Shown piece by piece: positions 5,398 through 62,092 of a stretch of DNA of 64,000 bases. A program made the translations under genes and the position numbers. The DNA comes from Phyto melanocephala. Taxonomy: Eukaryota > Arthropoda > Insecta > Diptera > Rhinophoridae. The stretch is taken from positions 21,119,201 to 21,183,200 of the forward strand of contig OW799235.1 in assembly GCA_941918925.1 (NCBI GenBank), given 5' to 3'. How positions within the stretch are numbered: position 1 is the first letter of the stretch; the number at the start of each line of letters is the position of its first letter. The notes beneath the pieces were generated by a model that saw only the letters and a list, made by a program, of their open reading frames with translations, did not search any database and was not told the DNA's origin.

Positions 5398-5683
5398 AAT
5401 AATCTAAGAATGGGGAATGGGGACCTTCGCAGAGGTGCACTTCGGTGCGGAACGCTCTTTGTCTGCTATTCACTTGGGAATAGCAAGAAGCAATTCCTCT
5501 GTATGAATTTTCCAAGCAGCTCACTACTTCCGGTCTTAGACCAAGTATTCCCTGGTAATGCCATTCAGACAACCGTCTGGTGGCAGCTAGAGTGAGAAGG
5601 CTAAACCTGCCTAGAGGTAGTTGGCAGCCCCAACACTAGGATCGGGATGCAGTGGTCTAATCAGCCCTCATTCCTAAATCAAA

Positions 5684-8609
5684 ATGATTACAGAAACGTC
5701 AATTAATTCAAATAACAATCCCCCCTTGATGACGACTTTTGGCTTTAAAAGACGGTTTATGATTGGTACATGGAACGTCAGAACTCTATCGGAAACATCT
5801 CGAATAGAGCAAGTACGCAACGAAATGGCTGTATATAGCTTAGATATTTTAGGACTAAGTGAAGTACGCTGGTTAAATAATGGTTCTACAAATTTATCGT
5901 CTGGTTATCATTTTATATATTCGGGTAATACCACACATAAAATAAGAGGCGTTGGACTACTTCTTTCACCGAAAGCTAACCGTGCTTTACTAGAGCACAA
6001 TGCTGTATCTGACCGCATTATCACAGCGAGGATAAACTCCAAGTTCCGAAAGATATCCATCGTCCAGTGTTATGCTCCAACCGAACCTGACGAAGATACT
6101 GCAAAAGATGATTTTTATAACCAACTTGACGCAACAATAAACAAACTTCCTACTGGTGATATTAAGGTAATAATTGGAGACTTTAACGCTAAAGTGGGAA
6201 ATAATAACAATAAATTGCAGCTAGTCATGGGCACACATGGACTCGGATCTGTCCGAAACAACAACGGCGACAGGTTTATATATTGGCGGAACGAAATTTC
6301 CTCATAAGGACATCCACAAATATACGTGGGTGTGCCCAACTGGCCGAACACGTAACCAAATTGATCATTTTCTGATAAGCAAGTTTTTTTTGGGATCTCT
6401 AATGGATGTTAAAACTCAACGGAGAGCAGATATTGACAGCGATCATCATCTTCTCGTTGCAACACTTCGTCTAAGACCTGCTGCAATTAAAAAAAGTTGT
6501 AAGCCCGAAAAATACAATACCACGCGGCTATTGGATCGTAATATAGCGCAGTCATACAACGAAAGCTTGAGGACGGCTTTGCACAATAGTCATCATAGCA
6601 CTTGGGCAGATGTATCACTGGCATGCAAAGAAACAGCAAAGTCAGTACTAGGTTTGAAAGAAGGCAAAAATAAACCCTGGATCAGCGATGAAACTTGGTT
6701 AGAAATTCAAAACCGTAAACAACTTCATAATGCAAGGATCAATGCTAAATCCCCAACAGAAAAACAACAAGCAATGGCAGAATATCGACAATCTGCTAGT
6801 CGAGTAAAACGTATGGTTCGTACAGACCGAGAAAAATATTATAACACCATAGCGGAGCAGGCGAAACAAGCTTCAAATACCGGAAATCTACGTGGAGTAT
6901 ATTCAGCCATAAAGCAGATAAATGGTAACAACATAAGAGGGACTGCAGAACTAAAAGCAATAGATGGAGCTGATTTAACAACATCGGAAGAACAATTAGA
7001 GCGATGGCGTGATTACTTCTCTTCCCAAGAGCCAGCAGAACAACAGGAAGACAATACACTTTTTAATCGTCGCCGAAATCCTAGGAGGGATATAGCCACA
7101 GATCCCCCGTCATGCTCGGAAATAGAAGCTGCTTTGAACGTGCTGAAAAACAACAAAGCCTCTGGTCCGGACAACATTCCTTCGGAACTGTTGAAGTATG
7201 GTGCAGGTACCCTAGCAGAGGTTCTTACCCCAATAATTCGCAAGGCCTGGATTTTAAATCGTATTCCGGATGAATTGAAAGAAGGTTTAGTTATTACATT
7301 GCCCAAGAAAGGCGATTTGACGCAATGCAAAAACTGGCGTGGAATAACTCTCCTTAATTCTATTGGTAAAATTATAGCATCCCTAATTAATCAACGTATC
7401 TCCCCTATAGCGGAGCAAATACTGCGTAAAGAACAGGCTGGTTTCCGGCAAGGTCGGTCGTGCGCAGATCATATCAACACGTTGCGCATCATAATTGAGC
7501 AATCAGCCGAACAAAACACTCCCTTATATCTTCTTTTTGTTGATTTTGAGCGCGCTCTCGACACAATATTCCGTAATTCAATGTGGTCGGCACTGTTATG
7601 TAAAGGCATTCCCGAAAAAATTGTAAACCTAATTCGTGAACTCTACAGGGATGCTAAGTGTAAGATTCGTTTTAACGGAAATGAGAGTCGCCCGTTCTTT
7701 CCCAACACTGGTGTAAGACAAGGTTGCATCCTTTTGCCAACGTTATTCTTAATACTACTCGATTGTGTCATGGAAAAAACCAATAGAGAAGCTCCTGTTG
7801 GTATTCGCTGGACCTTATCCGAATTTCTTTATGACATTGACTACGCCGATGACATATGTCTGATGGCCAATCGCTTTCAGGATATTGAAGCAAAACTTAG
7901 GTGTCTCTCCGAAAATGCTATAAAAGTTGGATTGAGAATCACCAGTAGGAAGACTAAGCTTATGCGAATAGGAACAGATGTAACAACTTCATTGGTGGTA
8001 AATGATGTTACTATTGAAGACGTAGATTCTTTTTGTTATCTTGGTAGTAAGATAACCAAAGATGGAGGGTCTCAAGCCGATGTTGCTGATCGTATCAATA
8101 AAGCACGCAGCTCTTTTTTATCGCTTTACAAAATTTGGCGTAGAAACAATATCTCGCGAAAAACTAAACTACGCATTTTCAACTGCAGTGTTAAGTCTGT
8201 GTTATTGTATGGCTGTTCTACCTGGAGCTTAACAAAAGAATCCATTCGTAAAATCCAAACATTTATAAACAAATGCTTAAGGCAAATTCTTAACATCTTT
8301 TGGCCTAATTGGATTACAAATGAAGCACTGCTGCAGATGGCGAACTCTAAGCCGGTAGAAATCGAAATTCGCAAACGCAAATGGACGTGGGTAGGTCATA
8401 TATTGCGAAGACCACAATCAGAAATAGCAAGAATAGCCTTAGATTGGAACCCACAAGGACAGCGCAGACCTGGTAGACCCCGAAACACCTGGGTGCGCTA
8501 CCTGAAACAGGAATGTGAACTTGCTCGAGTTTCATGGAATCAAGCTAAGGCGATTGCCAGAGATAGACAAAGATGGAGAGAATTTGTTGACGCCCTATGT
8601 TCACTTTGA
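5684..8609 (+). pseudogene. RTE-clade endonuclease-reverse transcriptase, one frameshift
   Basis: The first frame (5684-6307) carries an apurinic-type endonuclease: 'MIGTWNVRTL', 'LGLSEVRW' with the catalytic Glu, 'QCYAPTEPDEDTAKDDFY' and 'IIGDFNAKVG'. Reading then shifts to another frame (open 6237-8609, 790 codons) at 'LYIGGTKFPHKDIHKYTW', followed by 'SDHHLLVATL', which completes the endonuclease. Comparison with the usual layout suggests a small deletion around 6272-6280. The reverse transcriptase follows: 'NNKASGPDNIPSELLKYG', 'WRGITLLNSIGKII', 'QAGFRQGRS', 'LFVDFERALDTI', 'GVRQGCILLPTLF', 'YADDICLM' (about residues 536-543 of the second frame), then 'CYLGSKI' and the tail 'RKWTWVGHILRR'. 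RTE/BovB proteins have this domain order. The frameshift should abolish the endonuclease, so autonomous movement is unlikely now. Confidence 0.9.
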
Positions 8610-28645: not shown

Positions 28646-29346
28646 TACAGGGTGGACTAAAAGTCGCGCCTGCGTGTAAAAATTGAATAACTTTTTTGTT
28701 TATTATTATTTTTTATTAATTTTTTTTTTAAATTTTAATTATGAAAAATGATGTCAGAGAGATGACCACCATTTTCATCGATGCACAATTGGGCTCTTAA
28801 ACAGGCGTTTTGCATAACTGCACGCAAGGTTTCAGGCTCTATTGCCCTAATCTCAGCTTCAATGTTGTTCTTTAGCTGCTCTATAGCTTGAGGCTTGTTT
28901 ACATACACTCGTTCTTTGAGATAACCCCATAGAAAATAATCAGGGGCAGTTAAATCCGGTGAACGTGCTGGCCAATTAAATTCTGAATTTTTCGAGATCA
29001 TTCGGTCGTCAAAATTTTCATTTAAAAGCGTCATTGTGGCACGGGCCGTGTGTGCTGTTGCTCCATCCTGCTGAAACCACTTGTTGGCTGCCTCAGGGCG
29101 TACAAAATTATTAAGCATAGCGCGATATCTGTCCCCATTCACCGATACTGTATTACCAGTAAAATTGAGCGCCCATTGGAAAAGTAAAATTCTACCACTT
29201 TCGTTCGTTGCTCAGTCGTTAAATTTTGCATGGTGGTGTAACACGAATCGATGAATAAAATCTGAAAAAAAAAAAATAAAAAATATTAATAAACAAAAAA
29301 GTTATTCAATTTTTACACGCAGGCGTGACTTTTGGTCCACCCTGTA
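28646..29346 (-). mobile_element. Internally deleted mariner element (DD41D, rosa-like)
   Basis: The termini 'cagggtggac' (28648) and 'gtccaccctg' (to 29344) are flanked by TA at 28646-28647 and 29345-29346. The inverted repeats extend through 'cgcctgcgtgtaaaaattga' into the element. At 697 bp it is about half the usual mariner length, and the missing part is the middle of the transposase. The TA duplication is intact. Confidence 0.92.
28735..29232 (-). pseudogene. Mariner transposase, internal deletion and frame change
   Basis: The minus strand starts at an ATG near 29232 with 'MQNLTTEQRTKVVEFYFSN', the normal N-terminus of this group. After about 30 codons it jumps in another frame to 'NGDRYRAMLNNF', losing the DNA-binding domain and the first catalytic Asp. 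The remaining 135 codons (28735-29142) include 'WFQQDGATAHTA' (second Asp, residue 26) and 'WPARSPDLTAPDYFLWGYLK' (third Asp, residue 68), which leaves 41 residues between them. DD41D is the signature of the rosa mariner subfamily described in tephritid flies. The protein cannot be catalytic, but its terminal repeats could still be mobilised by a complete relative. Confidence 0.88.
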
Positions 29347-59784: not shown

Positions 59785-60175
59785 ATTATACCCTTCTCAG
59801 TGAGTGTAAGGGTATATATATGTAGGTTTGTCATTCCGTGTTAAATTTCTACAATTTTCATATCCGTCCCCATAAAGTATATATTTTCTGAAAGCTTATG
59901 AATAGAGGAGTTGATTGAGCGTTATCCGTCTATCCGTGTGTGTGTTGAAATCAACTTTTAGAAGCTCCCTAACATTGCCTGGACCTTTGTGAGGTATTAA
60001 AATATCAGAAATATTTGGGAGCAGATCGGTATTGAAAATCAGAAAAATCGATACGTAACCAACTGAGATATGAGGAAGAAACCCGACCACCTAGTTTTTT
60101 TCACAACAACAACAACATAGAACACATACATACAAACGTGGTATACTGGTCAGTGTGAACGTTGCATCTAATCAT
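59785..60175 (-). repeat. Family A dispersed repeat, end fragment
   Basis: It starts 'ttatacccttctcagtgagt', carries 'gtttgtcattccgtgttaaa', 'agcttatgaatagaggagtt' and 'cgaccacctagtttttttca', and ends near the decayed tRNA-like word at about 60155. The distal half is missing. Confidence 0.82.
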
Positions 60176-60333
60176 AGCTGATATTTTTATTTTATTAATA
60201 TTTTTTTATTTATTTTTAATTCGTTTTTATTATTATTTATTTTATTTTATTTGTTATTTTCGTAATTAATTTGATTTTAAAGTTAATTTTTGTAAAATAA
60301 AAAAAAAATAAAACAAAATTTTTAATTGTTATC
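60176..60333. other. Low-complexity TTTA-rich stretch
   Basis: Almost purely A and T. It separates the family A fragment from the 3' end of the defensin-like gene. Confidence 0.6.
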
Positions 60334-60359
60334 TTTATTTAGATATATTAAAATTTATT
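60334..60359 (-). terminator. Polyadenylation signals of the defensin-like gene
   Basis: On the minus strand AATAAA occurs at 60359-60354 and again at 60339-60334, about 80 and 100 bases after the stop codon. The distance suits a compact insect 3' UTR. Confidence 0.55.
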
Positions 60360-60438: not shown

Positions 60439-61035
60439 TCAGATCTGGCACAAACAAACGCCTCTGGAATTACAAAAGCCAGAATTAAAGCTACTTTTTT
60501 TACAATTAAAATTGCAACGTATATGATTTCGTTTAAAGGGAAAAAATGATAATATTTCGTCGCATATATCTTCCATACCAGAAGACACTTTTAAAGCAAA
60601 ATTAACAAATCTCTTAGACATCTCCTTATCAGAAGCAGTATTATCATCACTTTCGACTCTTTTCAAATTCTTACAGACACAAACGCTTTTGAGTGTACAA
60701 TAACCATTTTTATATTTATTATTTACACAATAAAAAACACAACGCAAGTGATTTGTTCGGAAAGGAGTAATCGCTATGCTGCAAATATTTGGATCAGTTA
60801 TTGTGACAGATCTGCTCATATCTCGTTTAGCACTTCTAAAATCTAAATTGTCTTCAAAGTCAATTTGAACAGATTGTTTTATTCCGTCCTCAGCAGCCAT
60901 TGCTATAGCATTGGCTTTAGTTACACCAAAGCCAAACTTGTCGAGAACGTTAATAACATCTTCTGATTTTTCAGCTTTAATTTTTCCAACAGCCAAAAAT
61001 AAAATGTGTAACAAAAATGTACAGAAGAATTTCAT
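60439..61035 (-). CDS. Two-domain defensin-like (CS-alpha-beta) secreted precursor
   Basis: This 198-residue protein is by far the best host gene here. Residues 1-20 form a signal peptide (MKFFCTFLLHILFLAVGKIK). An acidic pro-region follows to a Lys-Arg at 70-71. Module 1 has Cys 85, 99, 103, 113, 119 and 121 (C-x13-C-x3-C-x9-C-x5-C-x-C). Module 2 has Cys 158, 174, 178, 188, 194 and 196 (C-x15-C-x3-C-x9-C-x5-C-x-C). That is the six-cysteine spacing of insect defensins, including the GxC gamma-core ('GYCTLKSVCVC', 'GFCNSRGVCLC'). Between them an acidic spacer (127-140) is bounded by Lys-Arg at 125-126 and 141-142. By family knowledge, such sites are cut by proprotein convertases, so two basic peptides (about +7 and +3) may be released into haemolymph or a secretion. 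The ATG has a good context (ataaaaATG), and a TATA box and polyadenylation signals fit a single-exon gene. Antimicrobial action is inferred, not shown. Confidence 0.88.
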   Translation of the reverse strand: MKFFCTFLLHILFLAVGKIKAEKSEDVINVLDKFGFGVTKANAIAMAAEDGIKQSVQIDFEDNLDFRSAKRDMSRSVTITDPNICSIAITPFRTNHLRCVFYCVNNKYKNGYCTLKSVCVCKNLKRVESDDNTASDKEMSKRFVNFALKVSSGMEDICDEILSFFPFKRNHIRCNFNCKKSSFNSGFCNSRGVCLCQI

Positions 61036-61354: not shown

Positions 61355-62092
61355 AATACACGCAAAGAAAAAATATGGTTGTGGTAACCATAATCGAAGG
61401 GCATCATACTATGATTAAATTGTATGATTATGTTTAAAATAATAATGGTTACTAGTTATCATTATTATGTTTAATTTAAGGTTCATTCAATAATCATTTA
61501 TATGATTACAATTGAAATCGACAATCTTTGCTTTTTTACGGCAAATTATTGTCTTTTGCTGTAACATACACATGTTGATTTTACTTACCAATTTAATTGA
61601 AATTTTTTACCAATATTTTTTACATTTTCTCGTTTATTTTTAAATTTTCATTTATTTTTCAAAATTTTTGTTCATGTTTTTGACATCTCAAACTTTTCAA
61701 ATAATAAAAATTTATGAAGCAAGAAGAAGAACATTTAAAATCAAATTATTATTAAAAAAAATCATAGCTTGATTATTTTGTAATCATACTGTTGTCTCAC
61801 TCATTATTTAATGATTATTTTTAATTTTTAATGATTTTGAATATAATGTTATTTTTATCAAATAAATTTTTTTAAATCATACTATTTTTAAATGATAACT
61901 ATTTTGAAATTTTTACGAAAAGTAAACATTTAATGATACAATTCGAACAAATGCTTGATTATCGTTACAAAATATATGATGAAATGAAACAAATATAACT
62001 ATTACTTGTTTTCGACAACCAAATATTGTTCTAGAAAAAATAATATGACCGTCGTGATCATGTCGTTACCATGGTTTTTCTTTGCGTGTAGC
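61355..62092. mobile_element. MITE with 16-bp perfect inverted termini
   Basis: 'tacacgcaaagaaaaa' at 61357-61372 pairs exactly with 62075-62090. If the outer TA is the target duplication, the termini are cacgcaaag..., as in Tc1/mariner-derived MITEs. The roughly 730-bp interior is AT-rich and crowded with TGATTA/TAATCA words. It is non-coding. Confidence 0.8.

Follow-up and report, generated by a model that had tools for sequence, protein, structure and literature searches.

The window, that is, the whole stretch of DNA analysed here, is 64,000 nucleotides long, and on its minus strand it contains an open reading frame (60439-61035) that starts with an ATG at 61035, ends with a TGA at 60439 and encodes 198 amino acids plus the stop. 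The frame is defensin-like, with two modules, and its parts and the signals beside it are as follows:

60439..61035, minus strand: two-module defensin-like gene, a single open frame of 198 amino acids
60973..61035, minus strand: putative signal peptide, residues 1-21, predicted from hydropathy only, with an inferred cleavage point
60823..60972, minus strand: prosegment, residues 22-71, assigned from sequence, net charge -3, ending C-terminally in RSAKR
60784..60822, minus strand: N-terminal extension of module 1, residues 72-84, with 8/13 aligned residues unlike the nearest paralog
60673..60783, minus strand: defensin module 1, residues 85-121, matching Pfam Defensin_2 at 25.0 bits
60565..60672, minus strand: linker, residues 122-157, which holds the 14-residue acidic spacer
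60616-60657, minus strand: acidic spacer, residues 127-140, flanked by KR125-126 and KR141-142
60448..60564, minus strand: defensin module 2, residues 158-196, matching Defensin_2 at 21.2 bits
61134..61141, minus strand: TATA-like box TATAAATA, 106 to 99 bases 5' of the ATG, kept in the paralog
60334..60339, minus strand: AATAAA poly(A)-like signal, 100 bases 3' of the stop

Simulations demonstrated that the long frame and the doubled cysteine pattern are not due to chance. No frame of at least 198 codons arose in 60 simulated 64-kb windows (mean longest 112, maximum 168), and the doubled cysteine pattern appeared in none of 200,000 residue shuffles, the single pattern in 2. The signal peptide named by the first-pass annotation has a hydrophobic start (residues 7-17, mean Kyte-Doolittle hydropathy up to 2.5 over 11 residues) and, with hydrophobicity as its sole basis, is given here as putative. 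The promoter and 3' end described there were found as the TATA-like box and poly(A)-like words, the latter being a weak sign because such words are common in A+T-rich DNA of this kind (nine AATAAA or ATTAAA words in 300 A+T-rich bases on the 3' side, the listed one included).

About 4.5 kb upstream of this gene, just past the window edge, is its nearest paralog (G000:C3:21184763-21185413), with 73% identity over residues 1-197. An insertion with 23-nt terminal inverted repeats (61357-62090) is situated 322 bases upstream of the window-gene ATG. The match between paralog and window runs to 61358 and resumes from 62096 with the insertion absent, so the insertion is younger than the gene duplication, unless it was lost in the paralog. 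Directly downstream of the gene is an interspersed repeat (59786-60340), of which the window holds six more long copies (71-77% identity, 264-589 alignment columns). Elsewhere in the window, an element (5678-8606) that we take to be LINE-type has its endonuclease (5678-6304) and its reverse transcriptase (6225-8606) in different reading frames, and a transposase fragment at 28738-29211 (DDE_3 below its cut-off, E 0.0026) is presumably mariner-like.

The first-pass annotation had described two complete six-cysteine modules in one precursor and had proposed a search with the Pfam arthropod defensin profile. In that search, the window protein gave two Defensin_2 matches (33 bits as a whole), and each module scored above the curated cut-off of 20.4 bits, which bears out the description. 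Module 1 is spaced C-x13-C-x3-C-x9-C-x5-C-x-C and module 2 C-x15-C-x3-C-x9-C-x5-C-x-C. We compared both with a set of 160 retrieved defensins, mostly from insects; the last four gaps of the two modules (3, 9, 5, 1) are those of 155/160, and their first gaps exceed 12, the value that, combined with those four gaps, is found in 137/160. Searched by sequence against the insect defensins of the PDB, module 1 gave a best E of 6e-8 and module 2 of 6e-4. The single-sequence model of module 2 showed a helix and two strands, with Lucifensin as the top Foldseek match (probability 0.98, E 0.068). The model of module 1 was poor (mean pLDDT 59, best Foldseek probability 0.23), and the fold of this module is therefore predicted from its sequence and cysteine spacing. 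With its Defensin_2 match, last four gaps, putative signal peptide and prosegment, the window gene resembles the classical fly defensins (phormicin, lucifensin, sapecin and Drosophila Defensin), but the retrieved defensins carry one module per precursor (160/160) against its two, their first gap is mostly 12, and the CxxHC-type and GGYC signatures, present in 145/160 and 151/160 of them respectively, are kept in neither of its modules.

The fly's own genome (740 Mb, 9 contigs) was also searched. The Pfam family search returned 19 matches over the cut-off, 14 of them within open frames of 177 to 868 amino acids, and the window gene itself was absent from these 19. Searching with the window protein returned 126 matches at E ≤ 10 and 94 at E ≤ 1e-3. 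The latter, merged when less than 1.5 kb apart on the same strand, defined 59 gene-like places, window gene counted (36 on C5, 20 on C3, 2 on C2 and 1 on C6), so that 56/59 sit on two contigs. An open frame of at least 170 amino acids was present in 53/59 places, and in 9/59 a match contained a stop, which in some cases was the end of the frame itself.

Nineteen frames of at least 110 amino acids, window gene counted, were read from the loci of the Pfam matches plus 200 kb of C5, and 18 of them belong to the 59 places, among which multi-module status is established for the read ones alone. Because these frames were picked via the searches and the fetched stretches, they favour strong matches; the set excludes two shorter frames that also bear modules (77 and 50 amino acids), and one frame (C5:71399235) is clipped at the end of its stretch. 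Together the 19 frames hold 57 modules: three have one module, eight have two, five have three, two have five and one has thirteen, and thus at least two modules are found in 16/19. The first cysteine gap ranges from 8 to 15 across the family genes examined. One family gene of 500 amino acids carries five full modules plus a sixth whose first gap is shortened, and another (L016) has apparently lost most of its first module. The larger result is the multi-module family around the window gene, not that gene alone; the first-pass annotation missed it because the family lies outside the window.

Further observations concern individual loci. The 868-aa open frame L023 (G000:C5:72452235-72454838) contains 13 defensin modules and 78 cysteines, and by eye its modules 4-8 resemble modules 9-13 in order, a sign of internal duplication. 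Within the 120 kb of G000:C5:71280001-71400000 (L024-L035), nine frames of at least 110 amino acids, with one to five modules, all lie on the minus strand; a gene near C5 71336000 runs on in a second frame, perhaps as a broken third module. Elsewhere on C5, a weak match recurs three times with identical scores (72237128, 72322613 and 72406532), as does a second one (72253514, 72337429 and 72421348), each time about 84-85 kb apart, which suggests a large segment present in three copies. C4 (G000:C4:116539500-116561500; L013 and L021) has another group of defensin-like genes, small and with one module each. Their first gap is very short, at 6 residues in L013, and inspection by eye showed a furin motif in none of four frames. 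The canonical defensins of the same genome are on C3, near 116 Mb. The best single-domain one (L009) is 82-83% identical to Lucilia/Protophormia precursors and 43% identical to that of Drosophila, and L010 is 80-82% identical to the Lucilia/Protophormia precursors, values that mark the host as a calyptrate similar to blow flies.

We then examined the linkers, of which the 19 frames contain 38 between modules, or 26 without the 13-module gene. The furin motif RX[KR]R was found in none of the 38, and [KR]R was present in 11/38. Ahead of the first module, RX[KR]R lay at a distance of at most six residues in 6/19 frames, and the C5 cluster includes single-module genes that have a furin site two residues ahead of Cys1 (RRAKR-EAC and RRAKR-ADC). 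By eye, linkers are often prosegment-like, which suggests copying of a prosegment-plus-module unit; in L020, EEPVKIA stands ahead of the third module and EGSVKIA ahead of the first.

The two modules of the window gene share 13/33 aligned residues. At these identical residues the same codon is used in 7/13 cases, with 7.2 expected from codon usage, and third positions agree in 20/33 against 16.1 expected, a level reached in 8% of simulations. As codon sharing is no higher than codon usage predicts, the module duplication is old, in agreement with the earlier proposal, and the accompanying view that both modules have been kept is matched by the paralog, in which 12/12 module cysteines are intact. 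A tree was built from 5 canonical defensins and 47 of the 57 family modules, 52 modules in all, with ten from the 13-module gene omitted. In it, module 2 grouped with the neighbour's module 2 (99/97) and next with the final modules of L016 and L020 (81/83); module 1 fell outside every starred group, and many forks were unresolved. In an earlier 39-row tree that did not include the family, modules 1 and 2 had formed one group (93/67, unstarred). We prefer the wider tree, neither being decisive; since module 2 goes there with those final modules and not with module 1, the two-module layout looks inherited. After a lost KR site, the paralog reads DIC where the window gene reads DMS, and this, together with the mostly deleted first module of L016, suggests that the window gene formerly had an additional module ahead of module 1, of which the extension at residues 72-84 may be a remnant.

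We interpret these genes as a fly "defensin rosary" family, X-tox-like in its working but not X-tox, whose modules would stay joined, and give this reading a probability of about 0.6. The ancestor of the family would have been a defensin of one module whose prosegment was cleaved by furin; in-frame duplication of the prosegment-plus-module unit, and then gene duplication, would have produced the 59 gene-like places. Family members are probably secreted. The signal peptide would be removed, and possibly also the prosegment in members retaining the furin site, and the joined modules would act as a multivalent secreted defence-type protein, as has been concluded for lepidopteran X-tox.

A tandem arrangement of defensins is already known in insects, from moths. 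In excerpts of the X-tox literature (PMC2728511), the X-tox proteins, such as Spod-11-tox, are described as secreted, derived from defensins and confined to Lepidoptera, with a variable number of motifs and spacers without conserved cleavage sites. As a point against an unprocessed chain, the X-tox protein itself was cut into smaller fragments there, although these were not active defensins. The motif consensus, as excerpted, is C-x4-C-x3-C-x7-G-x-C-x3-K/R-C-x-C. On the basis of these excerpts, the fly family would likewise be secreted and defensin-derived and has tandem motifs of predicted CS-alpha-beta type in variable number (1 to 13), its linkers are without a furin motif (0/38, with dibasic pairs in 11/38), and the C3-C4 gap x7-G-x is common to both. 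By the same excerpts, the two differ in the first gap (x4 in X-tox, 13/15 in the window gene) and the fourth (x3-K/R against 5), and X-tox is lepidopteran, whereas the fly genome also holds furin-site single-module relatives along with its 59 gene-like places. The earlier remark that a two-module fly precursor would be unusual was too narrow in view of the lepidopteran X-tox. Our literature search returned no multi-module fly defensin among the matches listed, and the main-text excerpts of house-fly and stable-fly papers (PMC5400391, PMC7944917) give defensin numbers or clusters with no mention of multi-module proteins.

Defensin-type domains are paired in other lineages too. According to excerpts of PMC5700942, the bi-domain plant defensin MtDef5 likewise has two defensin domains in one secreted chain with a short linker, and its two-domain form is more active than the parts; it differs in belonging to a plant family and in having domains that are 84% identical, against 13/33 residues in the window gene. 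The avian double beta-defensin AvBD11 (PMC9138766) and the fungal Bizyarsin (PMC5234102) also have two defensin-type domains but come from other lineages, and in the excerpted accounts of the two no large family with varying module number was found. Baramicin A of Drosophila offers a parallel as a single fly immune precursor with several peptides, and is described in the excerpted source (PMC11116330) as cut at furin sites; these lie between its peptides, whereas such sites occur in 0/38 linkers of the fly family.

The alternative that survives best retains the same architecture but gives the secreted peptide a role outside immunity (salivary, larval-excretory, reproductive or venom-like), its surface residues changing fast on a fixed cysteine frame, and we regard this alternative as possible, though rather unlikely. 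The missing CxxHC-type and GGYC signatures are consistent with such a role, as is the lack of enrichment of NF-kB-like sites in the 1.5 kb upstream of the gene: two patterns gave no site within one mismatch and a third gave one one-mismatch match, counts that say little because 0.85 would be expected for one pattern. Both modules also match the robber-fly venom peptide 6px8, which has the same scaffold, but the match is weak (E 0.018 and 0.09), and ordinary insect defensins match better. Between the window gene and the paralog, coding sequence is less alike (518/597 bases) than the 5' flank (139/150 bases just upstream of the ATG, 154/172 in another stretch) and the 3' flank (149/155 bases). 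However, silent divergence (0.18) exceeds that of the flanks too, so the contrast may stem from gene conversion. The dN/dS values between the two genes were 0.136/0.178 (NG86) and 0.133/0.207 (ML), with a bootstrap median of 0.75 (0.46-1.40) that is not clearly below 1; both estimates were above 1 for module 2 and for the extension ahead of module 1, and we do not claim positive selection, because silent sites, too, diverge more than the flanks.

More doubtful is a two-peptide precursor, in which a dibasic-specific convertase would cut at KR71, KR126 and KR142 to free two defensins and the acidic spacer. The first-pass annotation had proposed such a cleavable spacer, and the 14 acidic residues between Lys-Arg pairs are present as it described (127-140). 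Of the shuffled sequences, 0.05% had KR in each of the three boundary segments, which had been picked after sight of them, and KR or RR lay 10-19 residues ahead of the next module in 8/26 linkers (1.5 expected; maximum 6 in 2,000 shuffles), an excess inflated by shared ancestry; some processing at dibasic sites may occur in the family. Against release of two peptides, all three boundary sites lack Arg at P4 (the prosegment end RSAKR is not a furin motif, because P4 is Ser), a residue present there in 146/148 of the retrieved precursors that have a dibasic site ahead of the module; such a site was found in 148/160 and in none of the other 12, and it stands two residues ahead of Cys1 in 148/148. 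Where classical precursors have RX[KR]R at this distance, the window gene has RSAKR and a 13-residue tail, and the peptides predicted from the KR cuts would bear N-terminal tails of 13 and 15 residues. A fourth KR (168-169) sits within module 2, and in the paralog this internal KR is retained while the three boundary sites have become KH, ER and KE. Dibasic pairs stand at both linker ends in 1/26 linkers, that of the window gene itself. Release of two peptides at the Lys-Arg sites is thus weakly supported, and the cleavable-spacer proposal is not supported.

It is improbable that the window gene is a decaying copy without its own function in a birth-and-death family, a reading in line with a dN/dS interval that spans 1, the stop-holding matches and the reduced L016, since the 198-codon frame is intact, the upstream flank is kept and all 12 module cysteines were spared although 54/198 positions had changed (chance 0.019).

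In the defensin rosary reading, the fly family is thus a counterpart to the rosaries of Lepidoptera, through convergence or a shared tendency. We consider the odds slightly in favour of flies having evolved a large arsenal of such proteins independently of moths, with whole modules gained and lost, so that their number (1 to 13) would itself be an evolving feature of the immune or secretory repertoire, the cysteine frame kept while linkers and surfaces change, and surviving single-module intermediates marking the route from cut to uncut. Defensins are textbook one-gene, one-peptide immune effectors. If the reading is true, one species would show the change from a cut peptide to an uncut multi-domain protein, its members ranging from one module preceded by a furin site to thirteen modules that lack it; in the excerpted X-tox work, this change was inferred by comparing defensins with X-tox genes. 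The family would also offer a tractable system for asking whether activity is gained when modules are joined, as in MtDef5, or whether killing is given up, as the excerpts cited above conclude for Spod-11-tox, and it raises the question of whether a class of proteins in maggot secretions has been overlooked.
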